Below, one piece after another: positions 6,046 through 20,421 of a stretch of 64,000 bases of DNA. The translations under genes were made by a program, and so were the position numbers. Source of the DNA: Alphaproteobacteria bacterium (GTDB lineage Bacteria; Pseudomonadota; Alphaproteobacteria; UBA7985; JAUIBT01); the NCBI GenBank assembly GCA_030428255.1, contig JAUIBT010000015.1, forward strand, positions 1 to 64,000. The letters run 5' to 3'. The notes beneath the pieces are model-generated. The model saw only the letters and a list, made by a program, of their open reading frames with translations. It did not search any database and was not told the origin of the DNA. Every line of letters begins with the position of its first letter. Positions within the stretch are counted from its first letter, which is position 1.

Positions 6046-7014
6046 CTACTTGATGTAGGGCTGGCCGATTGCAGCAGGCGGCGTCGGCCGGCCGATGAAG
6101 CCCGCCAGCAGCAGCACGGTCAAGACATAAGGCAAGGCCAGCATGAGCTGGGTTGGCAGCTCGCCGACCAAGGGCAATTCCACCCCTTCCAACCGCGTTG
6201 ACAGGGATTCCAAGAAGCCGAACATCAAGCAGGCCCCCAGTGCGCGGAACGGTCGCCAGTTGCCAAAAATCACTGCTGCCAGCGCGATATAGCCCTTGCC
6301 CGCCGACATCTCCCGCGCGAAGCCTGCGCCCAAGGCCACCGACAAGTAGGCGCCCGCGATGCCACACAGCAGGCCACCGAGGATCAGCGCGCGGTAGCGC
6401 AACCAAAAGACCGAAATGCCCGCGGTATCGACGGCCTCGGGCACCTCGCCCACGGCGCGCAGGCGCAAGCCAAAGCGGGTGCGATAGAGAATAAATGCTG
6501 TCGCAGGCACCGAGATCAGCGCCAAGTAGACCAGCAGATTGTGGCCCGACAGCAGCTCGCTATAGATCGGTCCCAACAGGGGTACGTCTTTGAGCATGTC
6601 CGAGAGCCACAGCGTGTTCGGGCTAAAGCGCAAGTCGTTGGTCAGCGCGGGCGTCTGACCGCCGCGCCCATAGACCGCGTGCCCGACCACTATGGTGAGG
6701 CCCATGGCCAGCATGTTGATCGCCAGACCCGACACCACCTGATCGCCGCGGTGGGTGATGGTGGCAAAGCCGTGCAAAGCCGACAGGCTCATTGTCGCGA
6801 TCATGGCCGCACCCAGCCCGACCCAGACCGAGCCACTGGCGGTGGTCACGGCTGCCGCGACGAAGGCCCCCGACAGCAATTTTCCTTCAAGGCTAATATC
6901 AACAATGCCCGAGCGCTCGGCGAAGATGCCCGCCATGGCACAGAGCATAAGCGGTGAGGCCAAACGCAAAGTGGCGTCCAGCGTCAGGATGAAAGGCATG
7001 ATCATCTCGTTCAT
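6046..7014 (-). CDS. Nucleoside ABC transporter permease (NupQ/YufQ-like)
   Basis: A 322-residue inner-membrane permease of the BPD_transp_2 type. AGIFAERSGIVDISLEG in the first loop and about nine hydrophobic segments match YufQ/NupQ subunits of BMP-dependent nucleoside importers. Its start overlaps the end of the other permease by 4 bases (ATGA), so both are translated together as a heterodimeric channel. It is the last gene of the operon running from 13640. Confidence 0.9.
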   Translation of the reverse strand: MNEMIMPFILTLDATLRLASPLMLCAMAGIFAERSGIVDISLEGKLLSGAFVAAAVTTASGSVWVGLGAAMIATMSLSALHGFATITHRGDQVVSGLAINMLAMGLTIVVGHAVYGRGGQTPALTNDLRFSPNTLWLSDMLKDVPLLGPIYSELLSGHNLLVYLALISVPATAFILYRTRFGLRLRAVGEVPEAVDTAGISVFWLRYRALILGGLLCGIAGAYLSVALGAGFAREMSAGKGYIALAAVIFGNWRPFRALGACLMFGFLESLSTRLEGVELPLVGELPTQLMLALPYVLTVLLLAGFIGRPTPPAAIGQPYIK

Positions 7015-8153
7015 GATGGGCCTCCTTCCGGGTTGGCTTTGCGCGGCAAAATCAGCGCCAAGATCCGCGCCAGCCAGGGGTCAAACATGTAGTAGAGCGC
7101 GCCTGAGAAGAGGATGATCAAGCCTTGGATTAAGGTGACCATTTCACGCGTGATGCTTTGGTAGTTGAAATCGATCTCGGTGCCGCCTTGATAGAGCGCA
7201 CCGAACAGCAAACTGGCCAGCAAGATGCCGACCGGGTGGTTGCGACCGATCAAGGCGACCGCAATGCCAACGAACCCATATTGGCCGGAAAAGTTCAAGA
7301 TTACCCGCTGCTGGGCGCCTGCAACCTCGTTCAGCGCCATCATGCCCGCTAGAGCGCCTGAAATCGCCATGGTCAGCAAGACGATGCGCGGCACGCGAAT
7401 GCCCGCATAGTGGGCGGCATCGGGGTTGTTGCCGATACCGCGAATTTCATAGCCAAGACGCGTGCGCCAAATTAGCATCCAAGTGCCGACCAGCGCCAAA
7501 AGAGCCACGAAGAACGACAGGTTCATGGGTGAGTTGGCCACCTGATCGAAGCCCAGCCAGTGCAGCACATCATGGGTTTTGTGCAGCACGGCGTTGCTTG
7601 GGAAGGGTGGTGTCTGCGGCGACATCTGGCCAGGCTGCATCATGGGGCCTGACAACAGACTGACCATGATGGCTGAGGCGATAAAGTTGAACATGATGGT
7701 GGTGATCACGATGTGGCTGCCGCGATAGGCTTGCAAATAGCCCGGGATCAGCGCCCACAGCGCGCCAAAGGCCGCCGAGACCAAAATCACCATCGGCACC
7801 ATCAAAATCGCTGGCAAGGTCGGGCCCAAGGACATGACCAGCAAGCCCACACCCAGACCGCCCAAAGTGACCTGCCCCTCACCGCCGATATTGAACAGCT
7901 TGGCGTGAAAGGCCACCGCCACCGCCAGACCGGTGAAGATAAAGTTGGTGGCATAATACAGGGTATAGCCCAAGTTTCCGGGGTACAAAAAGGGGCCTTG
8001 GAACAAGGTCCACAGCACCTCGCGCGGGTTTTCGCCCAGCGCCCAGATCACCACCGCACAGGCCAGAAAGGCCACCGCAATATTGATCAGCGGCAGCAGC
8101 AAAACCTCGGCCCAGCGCGGCAGAGGCGGTGGTGTGCCCAAAGACTTAAACAT
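7011..8153 (-). CDS. Nucleoside ABC transporter permease (NupP/YufP-like)
   Basis: A 380-residue membrane protein with about nine transmembrane segments. FHAKLFNIGGEGQVTLGGLG near residue 85 is the signature of YufP/NupP permeases, the larger of the two permeases of BMP-type nucleoside importers. It overlaps the upstream ATPase gene by 8 bases and the downstream permease by 4, so it is tightly coupled. Confidence 0.9.
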   Translation of the reverse strand: MFKSLGTPPPLPRWAEVLLLPLINIAVAFLACAVVIWALGENPREVLWTLFQGPFLYPGNLGYTLYYATNFIFTGLAVAVAFHAKLFNIGGEGQVTLGGLGVGLLVMSLGPTLPAILMVPMVILVSAAFGALWALIPGYLQAYRGSHIVITTIMFNFIASAIMVSLLSGPMMQPGQMSPQTPPFPSNAVLHKTHDVLHWLGFDQVANSPMNLSFFVALLALVGTWMLIWRTRLGYEIRGIGNNPDAAHYAGIRVPRIVLLTMAISGALAGMMALNEVAGAQQRVILNFSGQYGFVGIAVALIGRNHPVGILLASLLFGALYQGGTEIDFNYQSITREMVTLIQGLIILFSGALYYMFDPWLARILALILPRKANPEGGPS

Positions 8154-9756
8154 GGCTGGCTTCCCCCTGCGCCGCTGGCACCTTGGGCTTGGCGCGACCG
8201 CCGCCCATCATCAGTCCCAGCTCGTTTTCATCCGCTTGCCCGCGCGCTACTTCGCCCACCAAACGCCCGGCATTCATCACGATGATCCGGTCAGACAGAG
8301 ACATAATTTCTTCTAGTTCGACCGAAATCAGCAAAATCGCGCAGCCGCGATCTCGCAAGGCAATGAGCTGCTTGTGGATGAACTCAATCGCCCCCACATC
8401 AACGCCGCGCGTTGGTTGGCCGACGATGAGAACCTTGGGCACTGCATCGACTTCGCGCGCGATCACGACTTTTTGCTGGTTGCCGCCTGACAGGTGCTTG
8501 GCCAAAACGTTGGAGCGCCCGTTGCGGACATCGAATTCCTCGATCAGGCGCTCGGAGTGTTGGCGGATTTTGTCGCGATCCATCAGCAGCCCTTGGCCGG
8601 TCAAGGGACCATGGTGATAGCCCAAAATCACGTTTTCTTGGACCTGGAAACTCAAAATCAGGCCGTGGTGGTGGCGGTCCTCAGGAATGTGAGCCAAGCC
8701 CAGGTCGCGCATAGCGTCTGGGCCCTTGGGATTGCGGGCATCGACGCGATGGCCCAGCAGGTCAAAGCCGCCCTCCCCCACCGCGCGCATGCCTGCCAGG
8801 GTCTCCATCAGCTCCGATTGGCCGTTGCCCGATACGCCTGCGACGCCCAAAATTTCGCCCGCGCGAAGTTCAAAGCTGATATCCTGCAACACCTGGTGGC
8901 CTGCCTTAGAGCGCGCGCCCAGCCCGTCGACCGTCAAGCGCAGCTCTTGCGGATTGGCGGGGGTATGATCGACCTGCAACAAGACCTTGCGGCCGACCAT
9001 CAGTTCGGCCAGTTCCTGCGGATTGGTATCTTTGGTGTCCCTGTGGCCCACCATCTCGCCGCGGCGCATCACCGACACGCGGTCGGTGATGGCCATGATC
9101 TCATCCAGCTTGTGGGTGATGAGCAAAATGGTAACGCCATCGGCCTTGAGCACGCGCAGGATGTCAAACAGGCCCTCGGTTTCCTGCGGCGTCAACACGC
9201 CCGTCGGCTCATCGAGAATCAGGATTTTTGCGCCGCCCTTCAGGGCCTTAATAATCTCAACGCGCTGGCGGATGCCCACCGGCAGACTGCCGACCAAAGC
9301 ATCAGGGTCAACGCGCATGCCATAGTGTTCGGCAAATTCGGCCAGCAGCTTGCGTGTCGCAGTGCGGCCATCGGCCAGCAGAGCGCCGCCCTCGGTGCCC
9401 AGCATGACGTTCTCCAGCACGCTGAAGGTTGGCACCAGCATAAAGTGCTGGTGGACCATGCCAATGCCTTTGGCAATGGCGTCGGCGCTTGAGCGGATAT
9501 CTTCGTCTTTGCCGTTTACCAGCATGCGCCCGCTGTCCGCGCCCTGCATGCCGTAAAGGATTTTCATCAGCGTGGACTTCCCGGCACCATTTTCACCAAT
9601 GATACCGTGGATCGTCCCACTTTCGACCTGAAGGTCGATGTCCCGATTGGCCCGCACTGGACCAAAACTCTTTGAGATCTTTTCCAGCTCCAGGGCCAGA
9701 CGAGGCGCGGAATGCGCCCCGCCTGCCTGCTGGGCCGAGCCAACGGGTTGGGTCAT
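8146..9756 (-). CDS. Nucleoside ABC transporter ATP-binding protein, tandem nucleotide-binding domains
   Basis: A 536-residue ATPase with two nucleotide-binding domains, as in sugar and nucleoside (RbsA/YufO) importers. The first has a Walker A (GENGAGKST), a degenerate signature (LPVGIRQRVEI) and Walker B (ILILDEP). The second has a degenerate Walker A (GVSGNGQSE), LSGGNQQKVVIAREV and the D-loop region PTRGVDVGA. It energises the two permeases downstream. It starts 21 bases after the binding-protein stop. Confidence 0.92.
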   Translation of the reverse strand: MTQPVGSAQQAGGAHSAPRLALELEKISKSFGPVRANRDIDLQVESGTIHGIIGENGAGKSTLMKILYGMQGADSGRMLVNGKDEDIRSSADAIAKGIGMVHQHFMLVPTFSVLENVMLGTEGGALLADGRTATRKLLAEFAEHYGMRVDPDALVGSLPVGIRQRVEIIKALKGGAKILILDEPTGVLTPQETEGLFDILRVLKADGVTILLITHKLDEIMAITDRVSVMRRGEMVGHRDTKDTNPQELAELMVGRKVLLQVDHTPANPQELRLTVDGLGARSKAGHQVLQDISFELRAGEILGVAGVSGNGQSELMETLAGMRAVGEGGFDLLGHRVDARNPKGPDAMRDLGLAHIPEDRHHHGLILSFQVQENVILGYHHGPLTGQGLLMDRDKIRQHSERLIEEFDVRNGRSNVLAKHLSGGNQQKVVIAREVDAVPKVLIVGQPTRGVDVGAIEFIHKQLIALRDRGCAILLISVELEEIMSLSDRIIVMNAGRLVGEVARGQADENELGLMMGGGRAKPKVPAAQGEASHV

Positions 9757-9777: not shown

Positions 9778-10791
9778 TTAGCTAACAGGACAGGTGTTGT
9801 CCGCGCGATAGTCATGGACCATGATCTCACCTGAGATAATCTTAGCCGCTGCGTCTTCGACAGCCGCCTTCATCTCGTCAGAGATCAAAGCAGCGTTGTT
9901 TTCATCCAACGCCCAACCAACGCCGTTTTCGGCCAAGCCCAAGTTATAGACGCCAGCATCGAAGTTACCCTCCATCGCGTCCTTCATGGTGTTGTAGGCC
10001 GCAACGTCTACGCGCTTCAGCATCGAGGTCAAAACCGAGCCAGGCGCCATATGGTTCTGGTTGGAGTCAACACCGATGGAGTACTTGCCAGCATCAGCCG
10101 CTGCCTGGATCACCCCAACGCCAGTACCGCCAGCGGCCTGGTAGATCACGTCTGCGCCACGGTCGATCTGCGAGCGAGTCAGCTCAGCACCCTTGGCAGG
10201 GTCGTTCCAAGCCGCAGGGGTTGTGCCGGTCATGTTGCCCAACAGGTTGATGTCAGCATTGGCCGCCCGCGCACCTTGCTGATAGCCACACTCGAACGCG
10301 CGGATCAGCGGAATGTCCATACCGCCAACGAAGCCAACGGTGCCAGACTTAGAGAAGCTGGCTGCGATCATGCCCACCAGGTACGAGCCTTCGTGCTCTT
10401 TAAAGGCGTACTGGCGCAGGTTTGGTTGGTTCAGCCAGTTCACGTCGATAATCGAGAAGTTGACGTCTGGATTGTCGCCAGCCACCGCGTTGATGGCGTC
10501 CGCTTGGCCGAAGCCCACGCCCAGAACCACAGTCGCACCGCGCTGTACCATGCGGCGCATGGCTTGCTCACGCTGGGCTTCGTTGGTGACTTCAAACTCC
10601 ATGACTTCGATGCCGGTCTCGTCGCTAAAGCGCTTGATACCGTTGTAAACGCTCTCGTTGAAGGACTTATCGAACTTGCCGCCCATGTCATAAATGACAG
10701 CGGGTTTGAAGTTGCCGTGCGAGGCGGCGAAGGCCGAACCGGCGATAACAGTTGCGACCGCAGTTGCGGCGGCTAACAGAAAGGTTTTCAT
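9778..10791 (-). CDS. BMP-family nucleoside-binding protein
   Basis: A periplasmic substrate-binding protein of about 337 residues with a cleavable signal peptide (MKTFLLAAATAVATVIAGSA). The mature part has family motifs such as YDMGGKFDKSFNE near the start and TVGFVGGMDIPLIRAFECGY in the middle, as in BmpA/PnrA proteins that bind purine nucleosides. The ATG at 10791 is preferred over that at 10821 because the signal peptide then starts normally and GGGAG lies upstream. Ligand specificity is inferred from the family and from the neighbouring nucleoside hydrolase and ribokinase. Confidence 0.9.
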   Translation of the reverse strand: MKTFLLAAATAVATVIAGSAFAASHGNFKPAVIYDMGGKFDKSFNESVYNGIKRFSDETGIEVMEFEVTNEAQREQAMRRMVQRGATVVLGVGFGQADAINAVAGDNPDVNFSIIDVNWLNQPNLRQYAFKEHEGSYLVGMIAASFSKSGTVGFVGGMDIPLIRAFECGYQQGARAANADINLLGNMTGTTPAAWNDPAKGAELTRSQIDRGADVIYQAAGGTGVGVIQAAADAGKYSIGVDSNQNHMAPGSVLTSMLKRVDVAAYNTMKDAMEGNFDAGVYNLGLAENGVGWALDENNAALISDEMKAAVEDAAAKIISGEIMVHDYRADNTCPVS

Positions 10792-10868
10792 GTCTTGTGT
10801 CTCCCTGACAATTTTACCCAAAGGTTTGGGCGATAGATTCGTCTTGATCAGTCGTCGCTAGAGACGGC

Positions 10869-11711
10869 TCAGTCTTGGCGAATTTCGCTCAATCGTTCCG
10901 CCAGGTATTCCCCGGCGGTCATCTTGTCCAACCGCACCTCTGGTCGCGGGTGAACAAACAGTGGCATCGAATAGCGCGCCCGATTTTCTTGACGGGGCGG
11001 GTTTACGACGCGGTGAGGCGTAGAGGGGTAGTAGCCGCGTGTGGCCATCTCTAGCATATCCCCACAGTTGACAGTGATATAACCGGTAGCGCAGGGCACA
11101 TCGTGCCAATTACCGGCCAGGTCCTTGGCCTGCAAACCGGGCTCAGAGCCCGCGACCAGTAAGGTGATCAGATTGATGTCGCCGTGCTCGGCTGCGCGCA
11201 CCTCGCCGGGCTCGACGCCCTCTTCTAGGGGCGGGTAGTGGATGATGCGCAAAAGATTGCTGGTCGACCCTTCGATCATCTCAGAGAAGGGCTCAGAGGC
11301 GATGGCCTTGACCTCGTCTGGCGTTTCCTGCTCCAGCCACTTTAACAACATGGAGCCGATAGCAATCATGCGGGCCTGAAAATCGCGGGTCGTGGTCTCG
11401 ACCTCGGGCGGCACGGGGCGATCCTGATAGATGTGATAGAATTCTTTCAGGTCTTTTTGCACACGTCCCTTTGCGTTCTCGCTCTTGTAGCCGAAGAAGC
11501 CGTGCACTTCGCCCGGCTTGACCGCGTAGTCGGCCTTATTATCGCCACCAAAGAATCCCTTCCAGGTGTCGTACATGACCTCGATTTCATCGTCCGAGAT
11601 GTCGTGATCGCGCAGGATTGCAAATCCGGTCTTACGGAAAGACTCCGCAAATTTGCGCGGAGCGTCGGGATCGGTCAAACTGACCGCCAAGACTTCAAAG
11701 TCGTCAGCCAT
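10869..11711 (-). CDS. 2-oxoglutarate/Fe(II)-dependent oxygenase, isopenicillin-N-synthase-like
   Basis: A 280-residue soluble oxygenase. The iron ligands are visible as H176-x-D178 (AAEHGDIN) and H233 (STPHRVVNP), with R246 (RARYSM) placed to bind 2-oxoglutarate. The N-terminal DIOX_N-type region contains FRKTGFAILRDHDI. Family members hydroxylate, desaturate or ring-close small molecules. It sits inside the nucleoside uptake and cleavage operon, between the hydrolase and the binding protein, so a nucleobase or modified nucleoside is a reasonable but unproven substrate; fungal thymine hydroxylase and xanthine dioxygenase use the same cofactors. Confidence 0.88.
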   Translation of the reverse strand: MADDFEVLAVSLTDPDAPRKFAESFRKTGFAILRDHDISDDEIEVMYDTWKGFFGGDNKADYAVKPGEVHGFFGYKSENAKGRVQKDLKEFYHIYQDRPVPPEVETTTRDFQARMIAIGSMLLKWLEQETPDEVKAIASEPFSEMIEGSTSNLLRIIHYPPLEEGVEPGEVRAAEHGDINLITLLVAGSEPGLQAKDLAGNWHDVPCATGYITVNCGDMLEMATRGYYPSTPHRVVNPPRQENRARYSMPLFVHPRPEVRLDKMTAGEYLAERLSEIRQD

Positions 11712-11774: not shown

Positions 11775-12692
11775 TTAATGGCCTGTTTTGATTGTGTTCA
11801 AGAACACATCTTTGATGGCTTGGTCCTGCCCCCCGACACAGGCCTTTACGGGCCTGCGATTTGGATCAACCGAGCGCAAAGTTGCGCCGACCAGCTCTCC
11901 GTCTGGCACAACGCTAATCGCGGTCTCCTCGATAGTAAAGAGCTCTGGATACAAGACCGCGACCATGGCCGCAGGGTCGTGCATCTGGCAGCCCTCAATA
12001 TTGTAGTGGCTCATATAAAAGCGCGAGTAAAACTTGGCAGCCTCGTTCAAGAATCCACCCAGCACGGGCGCGGCTTTTGCCAGCCCTTCGAAGTCGCTCG
12101 GCGGACTGATGATATCGCTGGTCACGTCCAGGCCCACCATAGTCATATCCCAAGTGGCCGCGAACACTTTGTCGGCGGCGTGCGGGTCATTCCAGATATT
12201 GGCTTCCGCATAGGGCGTGACATTGCCGCGATCCAATCCGCCGCCCATCATCACCAAGCGCGTCTTGTTCTGAATGCTGGGGTCCAGCTCAAGAGCAAGC
12301 GCAATATTTGTAAAGGGTCCGATGGGGCACAGGACGATCTCACCGGGCGACTCGTTGATCAAATCCACGATCAGTTGGGCCGACGACCGCTCGTCAATCT
12401 TCCCCTTGGGCTGCATGGCGGGCAGATCGCCAAAGCCTTGCTCTCCGTGTACATAGTCCGAAGGCGGATTGGGTTCCATGACCAGCGGACGGTCCGCGCC
12501 CTTGGCCACGGGAATGTCATGCCCGACCATCTCAGCCAGAACCTTGGCATTGCGCGCTGCGATTTCGCTGGTGACATTGCCAAAAATCGAGGTCAGGGCC
12601 ACCAAGTCCAAATCTGGATGCAGTGCCGAGAACAGGATTGCGAAGGCGTCGTCGATACCCGGATCGGTATCAATAATGATCTTTTGTGCCAT
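11775..12692 (-). CDS. Inosine-uridine preferring nucleoside hydrolase
   Basis: A 305-residue enzyme that splits ribonucleosides into base and ribose. The calcium-binding, catalytic N-terminal motif DTDPGIDDAFAI occupies residues 8-19, diagnostic of the IunH family, and a downstream segment around CPIGPFTNIALAL also fits. With the ABC importer and the ribokinase it completes nucleoside uptake, cleavage and ribose phosphorylation. The preferred base cannot be read from the sequence. Confidence 0.92.
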   Translation of the reverse strand: MAQKIIIDTDPGIDDAFAILFSALHPDLDLVALTSIFGNVTSEIAARNAKVLAEMVGHDIPVAKGADRPLVMEPNPPSDYVHGEQGFGDLPAMQPKGKIDERSSAQLIVDLINESPGEIVLCPIGPFTNIALALELDPSIQNKTRLVMMGGGLDRGNVTPYAEANIWNDPHAADKVFAATWDMTMVGLDVTSDIISPPSDFEGLAKAAPVLGGFLNEAAKFYSRFYMSHYNIEGCQMHDPAAMVAVLYPELFTIEETAISVVPDGELVGATLRSVDPNRRPVKACVGGQDQAIKDVFLNTIKTGH

Positions 12693-12746: not shown

Positions 12747-13640
12747 CTAGCCTGCCCCCACGCGTTCTGCAAGAAATGCCTCAACCTTCTGTTTAGCTGG
12801 GATCGCGACCGCCGCACCGTGCGACTGAACTTGCAGCGCAGCAGCCGCGGCGGCATAGCGCAGTGCCGTCTTTGCTCGATCTGGGTTTTGGGTGTAGTGC
12901 GCCAAGAACGCGCCCAAGAAAGTATCGCCTGCGCCGGTGGTATCAACCGGTGTGACCTTGAAGGCCGCTTGTCGCAAATTGCGTCCGTCACCCGACACCA
13001 GCTCAGCGCCTTCGCTGCCCAGCGTCACCAACAAGGTCGCATCAACTGGCGCGGTGTGACCCAAGGCCCGCCGGGCTGCGCGCAGCTCTCCGGCTTCGTA
13101 CTGATTGACGGCCAGCAAATCGACCAAATCCAGCACGGCCAAAGCTTTTTCGGCGTCAAAAGGCGCAGGGCTATAGGCCACCTTCAGGCCAGCCGCCTTC
13201 GCCTTTTGAACGATCTCGATCGTCAAATTGGTCTCGTTTTGCAGCAGCACCCAGTCACCGGGCACGGCGGTCGCCAAGGCCGCGTCGATCTGCTCCAGGC
13301 TCAGCGCCTGATTGGCACCGCCCTGGATAACGATCATATTCTCGGCCTGCTCATCGACGAAGATAATGGCATGCCCCGTCGCTTGTTCGACCCGCGCGAT
13401 ATGGTCCGTTGCAACACCCAGCGCTGCGATGCGCGCAAGTGCCCAGTCGCCATCCGGGCCAACCGCGCCGACGTGGCGAACATGACCGCCAGACGCCGCA
13501 ATCGCGACCGACTGGTTGACACCCTTGCCTCCAAGGAATTTCTGGAAACTATGCGCGCTCAAGGTTTCTCCCGGCTGCGGCATGCGCGCCAGCGCGTAGA
13601 CCAAATCGACATTTATTGAGCCGAAATTTAAAATGGTCAT
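12747..13640 (-). CDS. rbsK: Ribokinase
   Basis: A PfkB-family sugar kinase of about 297 residues that phosphorylates ribose at O5. The N-terminal FGSINVDLVY, the substrate loop GGKGVNQSVA and the C-terminal catalytic motif DTTGAGDTFLGAF are all present. The frame is open to 13697, but the ATG at 13640 gives the normal N-terminus and has AAGG nine bases upstream. It is the first gene of the nucleoside operon and diverges from the CoA-binding gene; ribose released by the hydrolase is the expected substrate. Confidence 0.9.
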   Translation of the reverse strand: MTILNFGSINVDLVYALARMPQPGETLSAHSFQKFLGGKGVNQSVAIAASGGHVRHVGAVGPDGDWALARIAALGVATDHIARVEQATGHAIIFVDEQAENMIVIQGGANQALSLEQIDAALATAVPGDWVLLQNETNLTIEIVQKAKAAGLKVAYSPAPFDAEKALAVLDLVDLLAVNQYEAGELRAARRALGHTAPVDATLLVTLGSEGAELVSGDGRNLRQAAFKVTPVDTTGAGDTFLGAFLAHYTQNPDRAKTALRYAAAAAALQVQSHGAAVAIPAKQKVEAFLAERVGAG

Positions 13641-13700
13641 AGACAGAACCTTTTCATGGCGGGAGATTAGGCGAGCCTCACAGCGATAACAAGCCAAAAT

Positions 13701-14154: not shown

Positions 14155-15063
14155 CTAGGCCACCGTTTTGTTGCGCAAGTGGAAAAACAGCAGGCCAAAG
14201 GCGATCACCACACAACAGCCGACCAACGTTAGCAGGTTTGGCGGCTTGGCGAACAGCAGGGCGTCGTAGGCCACCACCCACAAGATGTTCGAATAGAACA
14301 AGGGCGAGATGATCGACGCAGGCGTAAAGCTGAGCGCCGAGGTCATGAACCAGTGCGCGATCCCGCCCAACAGGCCATAGGTGGCAAGCACCAGCAGCAG
14401 GTACCAATCCAGGTCCGCTGGCCACTGCGTAAGGGCCAAGGGAGCAAAGATCAGACATCCGGCCAATGTTGTATAGACCTGGCTGGTGGCCAGCGAATCG
14501 TAACGGGCCGCCATGCGCGAGAAGAGCTGATAAAAGGCCGTACAAATGGCCATACCAAACGAGAATATGAAGGGCCAGGACAAAGAATCGCTCAACGTCC
14601 AGGGCTCGATCACCAGCGCCACACCAGACAGGCCGCCCAAGATACACAGCCATTGCACCAGCTTAAGACGCTCGCCCAGCAAGGGGTAAGCCAAGGCTGC
14701 GACAAAGAAGGGAATGAGGTAGATGATGGCAACATTGGTGGTCATCGACAGATAACGCAATGCGATGAACAGGCAGGCCGTCGCGGTGGCCAAGGAGACA
14801 GAGCGGCCGACCTGCAACCAGGGCGCCTTGGAGCGCCAGACCGCCCAGCCATCGGAATAGGTAAAAAGCGCGCTCACCGCGATCTGAGGCGAAACAAAGC
14901 GCATCCAGACCACCACAAAGGTTGGCACGCCCATGGTACCCAACCACTTAGCCCCAGTGTCCATGGTGGTCAGCAAAAACACCGCTGCACAGCCCATCAC
15001 TATGCCCAGCCCAAGGGTTTGGGCCATCCGACCCTGCGGGCCTGCGTTTTGTGCCTGGCTCAA
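14155..15063 (-). CDS. DMT-superfamily (EamA) transporter
   Basis: A 302-residue inner-membrane protein with about ten hydrophobic segments arranged as two EamA repeats, each with the helix pattern of drug/metabolite exporters (VVVWMRFVSPQ early, YLIPFFVAALAYPLLGERL midway). The start is TTG at 15063, supported by GGGGAGGGG about seven bases upstream; an ATG at 15027 is the alternative. The TTG overlaps the TGA of lpxB, so it rides on the lipid A operon. Substrate unknown. Confidence 0.85.
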   Translation of the reverse strand: MSQAQNAGPQGRMAQTLGLGIVMGCAAVFLLTTMDTGAKWLGTMGVPTFVVVWMRFVSPQIAVSALFTYSDGWAVWRSKAPWLQVGRSVSLATATACLFIALRYLSMTTNVAIIYLIPFFVAALAYPLLGERLKLVQWLCILGGLSGVALVIEPWTLSDSLSWPFIFSFGMAICTAFYQLFSRMAARYDSLATSQVYTTLAGCLIFAPLALTQWPADLDWYLLLVLATYGLLGGIAHWFMTSALSFTPASIISPLFYSNILWVVAYDALLFAKPPNLLTLVGCCVVIAFGLLFFHLRNKTVA

Positions 15064-16277
15064 TGGATTCGCCCCTCCCCGCGCTCGTGGTGTCCCCCCG
15101 GGATCAGGGCTTGCACGATTTCAGCCGCCAGCTCTGAGGGGCTGTAGCCCTCCTTGGGAGCCGCCAGCATGGCAGCGGTTTCGGTCACAGCGGCCTTGTA
15201 GGTCGCGATGGCCTCAGCGTCGTACAAAAAGCGCTTAGCCTCAGCCAACAGCGCCTCGGGCGTGAAGTCCCACTGCAGCAATTCGGGCTGAATCGCCCGC
15301 TTATTCAAGATGTTGATCAGCGAGGCGAACTCCACCTTGACCACCGCCTTGACGATGCGCGCGGTCAAAGCGTTGACGCGATAGGCCACAACCGTGGGCG
15401 TGCCTACCAAGCCCAGCTCAAGCGCTATCGTGCCTGAGGCCACCAGCGCCAGATCCGCTGCCTTGAAGGCCGACCAGCGCAGAGCCTGGCCGACAATCAC
15501 CTCGTGCGGCAAGCCGGCTTGGCTCATCATCTCACGCACCATGGGCTCGACGGTTTCGACGGTTGGCACCACGAAGTGCAGGCTGGGGTCGTCAGCATAG
15601 AGCTGGGTCGCTGCCGCAATGAAATCGGGCAACAGCTTGGACACCTCGCCCTTGCGCGAGCCGGGCGCTATAATCACCCGCCGCAAGGCCTGGCTATCCT
15701 GCTCCGGGCTCTCTTGATTCTGGCTATCCTGATCCTTGGCGGGGCTTTGCTCCAAGTAGAGATCGGGCGTTGCCAGCTCAAGCAGCTCGGTCACAGGGTG
15801 GCCCACAAAGTCGGTCGCCAGGCCATGCACCGTGAAGTAGGGCGGCTCGAAGGGCAGAATGACCAGCAAGTGATCCAAATAGCCCGCCATGTGCTTGGCG
15901 CGCCACGGCTTCCAGGCCCAGACCGTTGGTGCCACGAAATGCACCTGCTTAAAGGGGGCGTCGCTGAACATTTTGTGGATGCGAAGCGACAATCCGGGGC
16001 TATCCACGGTCAGCAGCACGTCGGGCTCAAAAGCGCGAATATCGGCCGCAATCTCTCGCATGCGCCGCTTGAGGCGCGGGACGTGGCGCAGCACTTCCAC
16101 CAGGCCCATGATGGCAAATTCTTTGATGTCGAATTGGCTCTCAAGGCCCTGTTCAGCCAGCAGGCTGCCGCCAATGCCCCGCAGCTCAACGTCCGGCTTC
16201 TGGGCCTTCAAGCTGCGGACAAAGCGGGCGGCGAGTTGATCGCCCGACACCTCGCCTGCGATGATATAGATCTTCAT
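15060..16277 (-). CDS. lpxB: Lipid-A-disaccharide synthase
   Basis: A 405-residue GT19 glycosyltransferase joining UDP-diacylglucosamine and lipid X in lipid A synthesis at the inner membrane. MKIYIIAGEVSGDQLAARF, LTVDSPGLSLRI and VAPTVWAWKPWRAKHMA are typical of LpxB. Around residues 175-195 there is a Gln/Ser-rich stretch (AKDQDSQNQESPEQDSQ) with a duplicated 12-bp unit, probably an extra surface loop. Its start overlaps the end of lpxI by 4 bases. Confidence 0.95.
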   Translation of the reverse strand: MKIYIIAGEVSGDQLAARFVRSLKAQKPDVELRGIGGSLLAEQGLESQFDIKEFAIMGLVEVLRHVPRLKRRMREIAADIRAFEPDVLLTVDSPGLSLRIHKMFSDAPFKQVHFVAPTVWAWKPWRAKHMAGYLDHLLVILPFEPPYFTVHGLATDFVGHPVTELLELATPDLYLEQSPAKDQDSQNQESPEQDSQALRRVIIAPGSRKGEVSKLLPDFIAAATQLYADDPSLHFVVPTVETVEPMVREMMSQAGLPHEVIVGQALRWSAFKAADLALVASGTIALELGLVGTPTVVAYRVNALTARIVKAVVKVEFASLINILNKRAIQPELLQWDFTPEALLAEAKRFLYDAEAIATYKAAVTETAAMLAAPKEGYSPSELAAEIVQALIPGGHHERGEGRIH

Positions 16278-17209
16278 GCGGACTCCTTTGGACCGTCAAG
16301 GGGCAGCGCCTGTTGAGCTGCACCTGCCAGGGCTTCCGCCTCGCTCATGCCGATCACGAACAGACCAAAGCGGTTGGCCAATTCGACCAACTTCATTTCA
16401 TTCAGCACCAAGGCCGCGCCTGCCTCGATCACCATGCCTGCAAGCCCGGCTTGGGCCAAGGCTTCGACGGTGGCGGGTCCGATGGTGGGGGTATCCAAGC
16501 GGCGGTCTTGCTGGGGCTTCATCACCTTAACCAGCACCCCACCGCCGCGCCCGCGCTTCAGCGCACCAGCGCGAGCAATCATGGCGTCGGTGCCCTCGAT
16601 CGCTTCAATGGCAAGTATGAATGAGCGCTGGACAATCGCCCCCTGCCCGGCATCCAGGGTGCCCAGCGTCTTGGCAATCCGCCAGGCTTGCGCAATGTCC
16701 TGCCGGTCGGCCCGGCTTGGTTCCTTGCGGCTATAGCAGCGCTGCTCGGACAACAGTCCCTGCACCACCTCATCTGCGCCGCGCAGGCGAAAGCCGCGAT
16801 CTTGCAGTGCGTCGCGCGCCGCCTCCAAAATCGTGTTCTCGCCCCCCAGCTTGAACCCGATGCTTAAGACAAAACGCAGGCTGGTCCAATCGGGCCGCAG
16901 CGACCAGAGCGCGGGGCGATCCACCCCGCCCGCCAGCACCAGCTCGTTAACGCCCGCCAGGCGTAGCGCCGCCAGCGCTGCACCGGCTTTGTCCAAACGG
17001 GTGACGGCAAAATCTTCGCTGGCCAGGCCTTGGGTAACGTGCTCGCCGCAGCCCTTGATGGCGGCCACAAAGAAGGGACGCCCTTCGCGCTCGCACGCCC
17101 GGCGGATGGCGAGCGGCAGCTCGCCCCGTCCGGCAATAATGCCAAGCTTGGCCCCTGCCTCAGCCTGGCCTGCCAATCTTGATTGGTTGGTCTCCGCAAC
17201 AGCACTCAT
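16274..17209 (-). CDS. lpxI: UDP-2,3-diacylglucosamine pyrophosphatase LpxI
   Basis: A 311-residue LpxI (DUF1009) protein that hydrolyses UDP-2,3-diacylglucosamine to lipid X, replacing LpxH in most alphaproteobacteria. The N-terminal LGIIAGRGELPLAIRRACE and the C-terminal GGGVLVKVMKPQQDRRLDTPTIGP, with the catalytic-domain Asp residues, mark the family. It lies between lpxA and lpxB, the canonical position. Confidence 0.93.
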   Translation of the reverse strand: MSAVAETNQSRLAGQAEAGAKLGIIAGRGELPLAIRRACEREGRPFFVAAIKGCGEHVTQGLASEDFAVTRLDKAGAALAALRLAGVNELVLAGGVDRPALWSLRPDWTSLRFVLSIGFKLGGENTILEAARDALQDRGFRLRGADEVVQGLLSEQRCYSRKEPSRADRQDIAQAWRIAKTLGTLDAGQGAIVQRSFILAIEAIEGTDAMIARAGALKRGRGGGVLVKVMKPQQDRRLDTPTIGPATVEALAQAGLAGMVIEAGAALVLNEMKLVELANRFGLFVIGMSEAEALAGAAQQALPLDGPKESA

Positions 17210-17263
17210 GGTGCCTCACATGCAAAGCCGCGCAGCCGCGATGCTGGCAGGCGACAGCAAGGC

Positions 17264-18058
17264 TCAGAAGCGCGCGCCATCGCTCGCCTGGGTCAAACCA
17301 CGCTTGGCCGCGCCTTCGACGAAATCTACCAAGTCCTTGACCACCTTGCTCTCGGTCTTATCAGCGGCCAGAGCCTCCATGCGTGCCGCCAGGGTCTCGT
17401 CACCAAAAAAGATGGCCTGCATGGCCTGCTTCAGGTTGCTCAGCTCCTCGCGATCAAAGCCGCGCCGCTTAAGCCCGATTACGTTCAGCCCGACGACCTT
17501 AGAGCGCTCCCCCTGCACCAAAGAGAAGGGCACGACATCGCGCTCAACCGCCGCCATGCCACCAATCATAGCGTGCTGGCCAACGCGCACGAACTGGTGG
17601 ATGCCACAGGCCCCACCCAAAATCGCATAGTCCTCGACCACCACGTGGCCCGACAGGTTTGCAGCATTCACAATGATGGTGTTGTTGTGGATGATAACAT
17701 CGTGCGCGATATGCACGTTGCCCATAATCAGGTTGTTGTTGCCGATCTTAGTCACGCCGCCGAACTGCTCGACGCCCGCATGGATCTGAGTGTGTTCGCG
17801 AATCGTGTTGTTATCGCCGATTTCAACGCGGGTATCCCCGCCCTGATACTTGAGGTCTTGAGGCTCGATCCCAATCACTGTGAAGGGATAAATCTTGCAG
17901 TTGTTACCAATCGTGGTGTGGCCGGTCACATGCGCCTGCGGCTTGATGACGACGTTATCGCCCAAAACGACATGCGGCCCCACATAGGCCATTGCGCCAA
18001 TCGAGACGTTGGTCCCCATTTGTGCGCCCTGTTCAACGACAGCGGAAGGGTGGATCAT
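17264..18058 (-). CDS. lpxA: UDP-N-acetylglucosamine O-acyltransferase
   Basis: A 264-residue cytoplasmic acyltransferase for the first step of lipid A synthesis. It is built of left-handed beta-helix hexapeptide repeats (for example VVEQGAQMGTNVSIG) followed by the conserved YAILGGACGIHQFVRVG region and a helical C-terminus. Its start overlaps the fabZ stop by 4 bases. Confidence 0.95.
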   Translation of the reverse strand: MIHPSAVVEQGAQMGTNVSIGAMAYVGPHVVLGDNVVIKPQAHVTGHTTIGNNCKIYPFTVIGIEPQDLKYQGGDTRVEIGDNNTIREHTQIHAGVEQFGGVTKIGNNNLIMGNVHIAHDVIIHNNTIIVNAANLSGHVVVEDYAILGGACGIHQFVRVGQHAMIGGMAAVERDVVPFSLVQGERSKVVGLNVIGLKRRGFDREELSNLKQAMQAIFFGDETLAARMEALAADKTESKVVKDLVDFVEGAAKRGLTQASDGARF

Positions 18059-18534
18059 TCTTGTTTGTCTACGATCATCGCTGAGAATTCGGCTTCGGTG
18101 GCCAGCTCGCCATCAACATAGCCCTTGCCCCAAAAGCGGCACACAGGACCACGGCGGCGCTCGACCCCAATCTTCAGGCGCAGTTGATCGCCCGGCACGA
18201 TGGGACGACGGAAGCGCGCCTTGTCGATGGTCATGAAGTAGACCAGCTTTTCTTCAACCACCTTATCAGCCACGATGAAGTAGACCGTCGCGGCTTGTGC
18301 CAGCGCCTCAATCGACATCACGCCCGGCAAGATCGGATGACCCGGAAAGTGGCCTTGAAAGATGGGCTCGCCCATGGAAACGTTCTTGATCGCTTCGCAG
18401 GTCTGCTCCTCCAAGTCCACTTCCAAAACGCGGTCGATGAGCAACAGCGGGAAGCGGTGGGGGATCATGTCCATTACGGTTTCGACGGGCAGATTCCGCA
18501 CATAGCGTCCGTCGATCACTTCATATTTAGCCAT
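18055..18534 (-). CDS. fabZ: 3-hydroxyacyl-ACP dehydratase FabZ
   Basis: A 159-residue hot-dog-fold dehydratase of fatty acid elongation. The active-site motif GHFPGHPILPGVMSIEALAQ contains the catalytic His, with the catalytic Glu in the same helix. The position between lpxD and lpxA is conserved; both pathways draw on hydroxyacyl-ACP. Confidence 0.95.
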   Translation of the reverse strand: MAKYEVIDGRYVRNLPVETVMDMIPHRFPLLLIDRVLEVDLEEQTCEAIKNVSMGEPIFQGHFPGHPILPGVMSIEALAQAATVYFIVADKVVEEKLVYFMTIDKARFRRPIVPGDQLRLKIGVERRRGPVCRFWGKGYVDGELATEAEFSAMIVDKQE

Positions 18535-18642
18535 GCAACCTCATTTCTTTTATTCTTTGCTCGTTTGTTTGCTGCGCTCGGTGGCTCTTGCATTTGGCCG
18601 GTTTCCAAGCGTGATCCCATTTCCCCTTAAACTCGCAGGGGC

Positions 18643-19668
18643 CTAGCTGAAGCCCTCGCGCGCCAGAAGCTTTGTGATATTCTCATGTCTGCGCAATTGC
18701 TCGCGAGCCGTCAAGGGTGGGTAGGACAAAACTTCCTGCCCAGGCTTTGTCGAGCGCAAAATTGGCGTAAATGGCCCAACTTTCGACCCTTGCTTCAGCG
18801 TGATGTGGCCATTGATGCCAGCATGACCGCCGATCATCACGAAATCTTCGATCGTGGTTGAACCCGCAATACCGACTTGCGAAACGATGGTGCAGAACTT
18901 GCCGATCTGGACGTTATGGCCAACGCTGACCATGGCTCCCAATTTGGACTGATCGCCGACTACAGTATTGCGCACAGATCCCCTGTCCAAGACTGTACCC
19001 GCCCCCAGCTCAACGCCATTACCGATGATCACCAGCCCGTATTGCGGCAGGTTGACGATGCCGGTCGGGCTCGGCGTGAAGCCATAGCCGCGATTGCCCA
19101 GGCTGACATTGGAGTGAATGAGGTTGTTGTCGCCGATCAGCGAGTAGGAAATCGAGGCATTGGCCCCGATCCAGTTGCCCTTGCCGATGATGACATTGTC
19201 GTCGATCACCGCATTAGGGCCGACCTTGGTGCCGGCGCCAATCTCCACCTGAGCCCCGATGACCGCGCCCGCGCAAATCATTGCGCCGGGATCGACCTTA
19301 GCGGTCTCGTCCACCACCGCGCGCGGGTGAATGCCGGGCTTTATTTCGGGCCACTCCACAAACAGTTTGGCCCCCGCCAGAGCGAAAATCAGATAAGGTT
19401 GCTCACAAGCGATGACCGGAACCTTAGGCTGCAAGCCCGTCAGCAGCTCGGGCGTCGTCAAGACCAAACCGGCTTGGCTGTTTTCGATGTAGCGCTTGTA
19501 CCGACGATTGTGGACCGAGACCATGTCACCCGGTTGGGCGTCTTCCACCGCACTAACACCGGTAATTTCAGCCTGGGGGTCGCCGTTGATCAGCTCGCCT
19601 TCGGCCATAGCAGCAACATCGCCCAGCGTGAGCGGCTCCATTTTCGGGAAGAAACGCGTATCGGTCAT
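18643..19668 (-). CDS. lpxD: UDP-3-O-(3-hydroxymyristoyl)glucosamine N-acyltransferase
   Basis: A 341-residue acyltransferase adding the N-linked acyl chain in lipid A synthesis. A uridine-binding N-terminal domain (to about residue 105) is followed by hexapeptide repeats and the catalytic-region segment SVGHNVQIGKFCTIVSQVGI with its conserved His. A terminator-like hairpin at 19746-19778 separates it from ompH upstream. Confidence 0.95.
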   Translation of the reverse strand: MTDTRFFPKMEPLTLGDVAAMAEGELINGDPQAEITGVSAVEDAQPGDMVSVHNRRYKRYIENSQAGLVLTTPELLTGLQPKVPVIACEQPYLIFALAGAKLFVEWPEIKPGIHPRAVVDETAKVDPGAMICAGAVIGAQVEIGAGTKVGPNAVIDDNVIIGKGNWIGANASISYSLIGDNNLIHSNVSLGNRGYGFTPSPTGIVNLPQYGLVIIGNGVELGAGTVLDRGSVRNTVVGDQSKLGAMVSVGHNVQIGKFCTIVSQVGIAGSTTIEDFVMIGGHAGINGHITLKQGSKVGPFTPILRSTKPGQEVLSYPPLTAREQLRRHENITKLLAREGFS

Positions 19669-19745
19669 AGCATCCTTTGCCGTCCAACCGGCTGTCTTGA
19701 GAGCCTGTGAGCGGCTCCAGTTCTGGCGCGCTCAAAGCGGCGCGC

Positions 19746-19778
19746 AAAAAAACACCGACCGCTGAGAACAACGGTCGG
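19746..19778 (-). terminator. Rho-independent terminator or attenuator between ompH and lpxD
   Basis: On the minus strand, CCGACCG-(10 nt)-CGGTCGG is followed by TG and seven T residues. It lies about 80 bases after the ompH stop and 80 before the lpxD start, so it should end or attenuate the bamA-ompH transcript. Confidence 0.75.
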
Positions 19779-19857
19779 CACGTGTGTAGCGGTTCTAGGC
19801 GCGCTTGGCCAGTCGGCAAACGCGCCCAAATGTCCGTCAGTGGTCGCGCGCTGGATT

Positions 19858-20421
19858 TTACTCCGAGTCGGGCGCTTTGCTGAGGTCAGCCAACTCTGGC
19901 ATGCTTACGTTCAAGCGCTCAATCGCTGCGTCGGTGATGTCGAAGTCATCCGCCATGACGATTACCGCGCCTTTGGCAATCACCATATTCACGCCCTGCT
20001 CAGCGGCCACTTCCAAGGACACCGCATTGAGGGACTGCAAGATGGCAGCGCGTTGGACCCTTGCATAGCGGTCCAATTTGGCGCGTGCATCAACAACCTC
20101 AGCGCGGATCTTGTTGGCCTTGGCGTTGACTTCTAAGCTCTTGGCACGGAAGTCCTCTTGCGACAGGCTTGAGCGCTGATCGTTCAGAGCCTTGGATTCG
20201 TCACGCAGCGCGGTGAGCTGCTCTTTGTTCCAGTCCTCAATGCGTTGGCGCTCGGCGACGACGAAATCTCGCAGTTTTTGACCAACAGTCGACTCGCGCA
20301 CGGCACGGTCCCGGTCAACCACCAAAACGCGGGGAATGAAGGCCTCACCTTGAGCGAAGGCGGGCAGCGCGAAGGCGTTCAACGCCAAAGCGAGCAAAAG
20401 GGTTAGGGACGAAAGGCGCAT
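19858..20421 (-). CDS. ompH: OmpH/Skp-family periplasmic chaperone
   Basis: A 187-residue protein with a signal peptide ending near LPAFAQG and a long charged coiled-coil region (residues ~45-130), the tentacle part of Skp trimers that hold unfolded outer-membrane proteins. PRVLVVDRDRAVRES at the start of the mature chain is typical. AGG lies about nine bases before the ATG. It follows bamA as expected. Confidence 0.9.
   Translation of the reverse strand: MRLSSLTLLLALALNAFALPAFAQGEAFIPRVLVVDRDRAVRESTVGQKLRDFVVAERQRIEDWNKEQLTALRDESKALNDQRSSLSQEDFRAKSLEVNAKANKIRAEVVDARAKLDRYARVQRAAILQSLNAVSLEVAAEQGVNMVIAKGAVIVMADDFDITDAAIERLNVSMPELADLSKAPDSE

Follow-up and report, generated by a model that had tools for sequence, protein, structure and literature searches.

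The Deo enzymes handle both ribo- and deoxyribonucleosides, by phosphorolysis together with DeoC. In nucleoside hydrolases, Ca2+ is bound via the substrate's O2' and O3' hydroxyls, and every isozyme characterised shows a very low turnover with deoxynucleosides (PMC8910321); with RK9NH, 0% of 2'-deoxyuridine is converted while 2'-O-methyluridine is converted at 100% (PMC6278475). Fungal thymidine salvage involves, according to work cited in PMC4787775, a hydroxylase which turns thymidine into the thymine ribonucleoside ahead of hydrolysis. The same pathway contains thymine 7-hydroxylase (T7H), where Phe292 and an aromatic residue at position 217 (Tyr217; Tyr, Phe or Trp are reported) sandwich the base (PMC4787775). 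FJS and PHYHD1, both 2-oxoglutarate oxygenases, restore a plain ribonucleoside from a modified one (PMC12709175), and two solved structures, 3ON7 and 3OOX, are placed among enzymes of undefined function in a review (PMC10467617). A search of the open-access literature found no paper tying an oxygenase of the type described below to operons for nucleoside hydrolases and BMP importers.

The window analysed here is a stretch of 64,000 nt from an Alphaproteobacteria bacterium (GCA_030428255.1, contig JAUIBT010000015.1, positions 1 to 64,000, forward strand). It displays a run of seven minus-strand genes in which an oxygenase gene, OXY, is flanked by a nucleoside hydrolase gene, IUNH, and a BMP gene (Table 1). 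The earlier note had described such a run with short gaps or overlaps, and the coordinates and spacings bear this out: from the kinase onwards the intergenic spacings are 54, 63, 47, 21, -8 and -4 bases, the third being 77 rather than 47 if BMP starts at its ATG. Pfam assigns the neighbours of OXY to the PfkB/ribokinase-like, IU_nuc_hydro, Bmp, ABC_tran and BPD_transp_2 families, and the importer has the Bmp domain, double ATPase and paired BPD_transp_2 permeases of the BMP/PnrA type. The best NCBIfam matches are ribokinase models for the kinase and RihC for IUNH, all below cut-off, while vitamin B6 importer models match the operon proteins only far below theirs. Past the 5' end of the operon (14155-20421), translated reading frames point to an EamA-like exporter gene followed by apparent lpxB, lpxI, lpxA, fabZ, lpxD and Skp-like genes, as for lipid A synthesis.

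Table 1. Genes of the seven-gene run, with positions in the window.
Feature	Position	Strand	Remark
PfkB-family ribokinase-like kinase	12747..13697	(-)	TTG start; alternative ATG at codon 19 (13640)
IUNH, group I nucleoside hydrolase	11775..12692	(-)	Pfam IU_nuc_hydro
OXY, Fe(II)/2-oxoglutarate oxygenase (DIOX_N + 2OG-FeII_Oxy)	10869..11711	(-)	proposed deoxyribonucleoside 2'-hydroxylase
BMP/PnrA-like nucleoside-binding protein	9778..10821	(-)	TTG ORF; probable ATG start and signal peptide at 10791
ABC transporter double-ATPase subunit	8146..9756	(-)	ABC_tran in two stretches
ABC transporter permease PERM2	7011..8153	(-)	BPD_transp_2
ABC transporter permease PERM1	6046..7014	(-)	BPD_transp_2

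The OXY gene starts at an ATG preceded by an AGGAGG ribosome-binding site and encodes a 280 aa protein that matches PF03171 (E 3.8e-18) and PF14226 (2.3e-09) above cut-off, while no NCBIfam model matched. Both the HxD...H iron triad and the Arg-x-Ser 2-oxoglutarate motif of an IPNS-like 2OG-Fe(II) oxygenase are present. The cofactor residues named from the letters alone (H176, D178, H233, R246) are invariant among 23 aligned homologues, as is S248. When searched against solved proteins, the sequence matched first Shewanella oneidensis SO_2589 (PDB 3ON7), a putative oxygenase (phmmer 1.2e-69, about 42% identical), then CC_0200 (3OOX) and then T7H. Foldseek gave the same ranking with an AlphaFold model of OXY (mean pLDDT 89.8). 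By VIA-align 3ON7 ranked first as well (Z 35.5, rmsd 2.2, 268 residues), followed by a tie between T7H (Z 30.5, rmsd 2.3, 264 residues) and 3OOX (Z 30.4, rmsd 2.4, 261 residues). OXY belongs to the SO_2589/3ON7 subfamily, to which it is clearly more similar over its full length than to the next groups; in the OXY tree the nine next-nearest homologues split from this subfamily with 100/100 support. The closest characterised structure, Neurospora crassa T7H (PDB 5C3Q; Foldseek E 6e-23), shares the fold and the metal triad, and its 2-oxoglutarate ligands Tyr194, Arg286 and Ser288 correspond to Y159, R246 and S248. By sequence alignment, T7H Arg190 and Phe292 (residues from PMC4787775) equal R155 and F252; in contrast, Tyr217 and Asn294 are replaced by I179 and H254, and identity is 27%. 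We rejected membership of the T7Hs, since the position of Tyr217 holds I179, which is invariant in the homologues. Membership of the PhyH-type demethylases FJS and PHYHD1 was also rejected, OXY matching only PF03171/PF14226 and not PF05721. The genome of the window carries, away from the operon, a second PF03171 oxygenase (L001, G000:C58:8172-8423) with an open frame of 353 aa.

In order to follow the linkage across lineages, OXY homologues were counted from whole-genome searches, a contig search with the OXY protein alone having matched only two loci. A close homologue (over 200 bits) was observed in 18 of 385 alphaproteobacterial genomes. The order kinase-IUNH-OXY-BMP-ATPase-permease-permease is not due to chance; it recurs in five alphaproteobacterial groups, namely the genus of the window (G117/L003), G096, G623, a Paracoccaceae MAG (L004) and the SAR116-like family f111. 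OXY occurs in 42 of the 61 f111 genomes, with IUNH directly upstream in 19/19 loci having enough contig. A cytidine deaminase gene follows PERM1 in f111 and in G623, and in f111 it is adjoined by upp and tdk. The 22 alphaproteobacterial OXY-operon importers of the window type form a single 100/100 group within a tree of importers whose other members are without linked OXY. In the gammaproteobacterial family f306, OXY is present in 12 of the 63 genomes of the order and adjoins IUNH and the kinase in 9 of 10 loci read, either as kinase-IUNH-OXY on one strand or with OXY divergent from kinase-IUNH; in the tenth (L120), OXY comes directly after the importer. In the OXY tree the f306 member L081 falls inside a gammaproteobacterial group, apart from the alphaproteobacterial operons, so that the association arose repeatedly, or is ancestral with frequent loss, or was transferred. 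The earlier expectation that homologues would be linked to iunH and bmp genes thus held, and a role of OXY in the catabolism of nucleosides is strongly supported by this recurrence. Two f111 loci (L067, L069) keep IUNH-OXY, cdd and, where the contig reaches, the kinase, while the importer at the same place is of a different BMP type (identity 30% for BMP, 37-40% for the permeases). Kinase linkage is not universal: the f111 operons L043 (G213) and L071 differ from most others in that a ribokinase-like gene next to IUNH was not found.

IUNH has the features of a group I nucleoside hydrolase: the DTDPGIDD Ca2+ site (motif DTDPGxDD), N39, E163/N165 and H238/D239 are near-invariant in 32 operon homologues. 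Since nucleoside hydrolases hardly cleave deoxynucleosides, IUNH and the ribokinase would cover ribonucleosides only, which leaves deoxynucleoside conversion as the step unfilled in the OXY module. Relatives of the importer without linked OXY often lie at loci that carry cdd, punA, deoC, deoA and deoB in varying subsets; for 12 of 22 such loci the fetched stretch includes deoA. These Deo-linked systems share the importer type (BMP 51-65% identical) and often cdd with the OXY operon, but they have phosphorolysis and the DeoC aldolase where the latter has hydrolysis and an oxygenase. DeoA (PF07831 C-terminal domain) was found in 17/18 importer genomes without linked OXY, as compared with 0/25 OXY carriers of operon-bearing families (the operon itself was read in 17 of these; Fisher p 4e-11 by genome). 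For DeoC (TIGR00126) the figures are 16/18 and 0/33 (operon read in 20 of the 33), or 10/12 and 0/5 by family (Fisher p 0.003); the family-level p is the fairer figure, yet it is built on few lineages, as the independent lineages behind the contrast are few. The contrast applies to importer-bearing genomes and not to alphaproteobacteria at large, where DeoC has a base rate of 32/152 sampled. It is also seen inside family f24, where DeoA and DeoC are both present in six importer genomes without linked OXY and both absent from G623, the carrier of the OXY operon. The window's own genome (99% complete) gave no PF07831 or TIGR00126 match, and within the window the Deo, cdd, udp, upp and tdk queries all remained without a match. 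There are two exceptions: G066 has an adjacent DeoA and no DeoC match, and G563, the only importer genome with neither DeoA nor DeoC, has, in addition to importer and cdd (L105), an OXY that is unlinked (L087). Moreover, f306 and f111 genomes without OXY are likewise without DeoC, so that carriers and non-carriers do not differ in either family; Deo loss does not require OXY.

The module swap suggests that OXY turns DNA nucleosides into RNA nucleosides for consumption. Genomic context and elimination lead us to propose OXY as a putative deoxyribonucleoside 2'-hydroxylase feeding IUNH and the ribokinase, with a probability of about 0.5. The BMP-type ABC transporter would import nucleosides, whose breakdown would bypass the phosphorolytic Deo route. 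From ribonucleosides IUNH would release base and ribose, the latter being trapped by the kinase as ribose-5-phosphate. Imported 2'-deoxyribonucleosides would first be hydroxylated at C2' by OXY, O2 and 2-oxoglutarate yielding succinate and CO2, and the resulting ribonucleosides would enter the same route; in f111 and in G623 the run also includes a cytidine deaminase. A C2'-hydroxylating 2-oxoglutarate oxygenase would thereby supply the missing step, because IUNH can hardly cleave deoxynucleosides. From the context we infer the substrate and reaction of OXY as well as the specificities of importer, hydrolase and kinase. The proposed reaction and its place in the pathway are those of the fungal thymidine 2'-hydroxylase (pyrimidine-deoxynucleoside 2'-dioxygenase, EC 1.14.11.3); the latter differs in being fungal and known biochemically, and the likeness is one of proposed reaction. 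We know of no gene assigned to the fungal enzyme. Slightly more tentatively, OXY may represent the first bacterial deoxyribonucleoside 2'-hydroxylase, and in several lineages of alpha- and gammaproteobacteria an oxidative-hydrolytic route made of OXY, nucleoside hydrolase and ribokinase may stand in for the Deo pathway in the use of nucleosides derived from DNA. If true, the reaction known in fungi would gain a candidate gene, deoxynucleosides could be consumed in the absence of a deoxyribose-phosphate aldolase, and the structurally solved but functionally undefined 3ON7 oxygenase subfamily would have a hypothesis for its substrate; besides, a genome without deoA and deoC that has the OXY module would no longer be taken as incapable of using DNA nucleosides catabolically.

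The earlier note had named free bases and modified nucleosides as possible substrates, and the Deo swap favours ordinary 2'-deoxyribonucleosides over both. The modified nucleoside is retained as a rival, in which OXY would be a 2'-O-methylnucleoside demethylase oxidising the O-methyl group of RNA-derived nucleosides to formaldehyde and a ribonucleoside. We consider this unlikely, if less so than the other alternatives. The chemistry is established for PHYHD1 and for FJS, a 2-oxoglutarate oxygenase from bacteria (PMC12709175), and the ribonucleoside product would feed the same IUNH and ribokinase; yet FJS and PHYHD1 belong to PF05721, 2'-O-methyluridine is a direct substrate of at least one nucleoside hydrolase (PMC6278475), and the operons read had no recognisable gene for handling formaldehyde. 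It also leaves unexplained why the module stands in for deoA/deoC.

Standalone homologues (40-54% identical) are common in many alpha- and gammaproteobacterial families, without nucleoside neighbours or any constant neighbour, and any single substrate for the whole subfamily must make sense in these carriers too. Their active-site residues are nearly identical to those of the operon copies; differences are few and non-catalytic, such as G188, T213, N243, Y247 and I277, and a pocket comparison of the two sets did not separate substrates. Standalone OXY mostly coexists with DeoC in the gammaproteobacteria tested. It follows that either the standalone copies act otherwise or the proposed substrate is wrong. 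OXY might be a general housekeeping or detoxifying enzyme unrelated to deoxynucleosides, its place in the operon reflecting another modified nucleoside or a damage product. The persistence of standalone copies with the same motif in small genomes (1.0-2.1 Mb), next to ferredoxin/isc, dusA-like, A-type carrier and other unrelated genes, would fit with this; but the repeated association of OXY either with IUNH and a kinase or with the importer, in two classes, and its exchange with deo genes, make it improbable, a little more so than demethylation.

It is more doubtful still that OXY oxidises the free base released by IUNH, for example by T7H-like oxidation of thymine. The closest characterised structure does act on a nucleobase, T7H oxidising thymine in three steps, and Arg190 and Phe292 of T7H are conserved in OXY; however, the key aromatic position 217 holds the invariant I179 and none of the OXY operons read had a recognisable decarboxylase gene. 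Such an activity would not explain the deoA/deoC exchange either, because the Deo route too releases free thymine. Oxidation of deoxynucleosides at C1' to base and 2-deoxyribonolactone, an activity reportedly found in the deoxyuridine 1'-dioxygenase of Rhodotorula, would account for the absence of DeoA and DeoC as well, but is the least probable of all, as we recognised neither lactonase nor deoxyribonate genes in the operons, and as such an activity would make IUNH and ribokinase, the usual OXY neighbours, needless as partners.

The neighbourhoods of standalone OXY genes, judged from translated sequence only, differ between families. In family f7, OXY lies directly upstream of a 2Fe-2S ferredoxin gene (L045:9086-9940, L048:9076-10017, L049:6145-6996), which in L045 is the end of an isc-hsc cluster. 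Among gammaproteobacteria, it adjoins a DusA-like tRNA dihydrouridine synthase gene in L078:7474-8454 and L084:5411-6526, and an A-type iron-sulfur carrier gene in L082 and L088. In family f2, of the window's own order, two OXY genes unlinked to nucleoside genes (L046:9179-10018, L047:8835-9815) group with gammaproteobacterial OXYs on the tree; they are divergent from a cluster of aminotransferase, glutamine-synthetase-like and FAD-oxidase genes that resembles polyamine catabolism.
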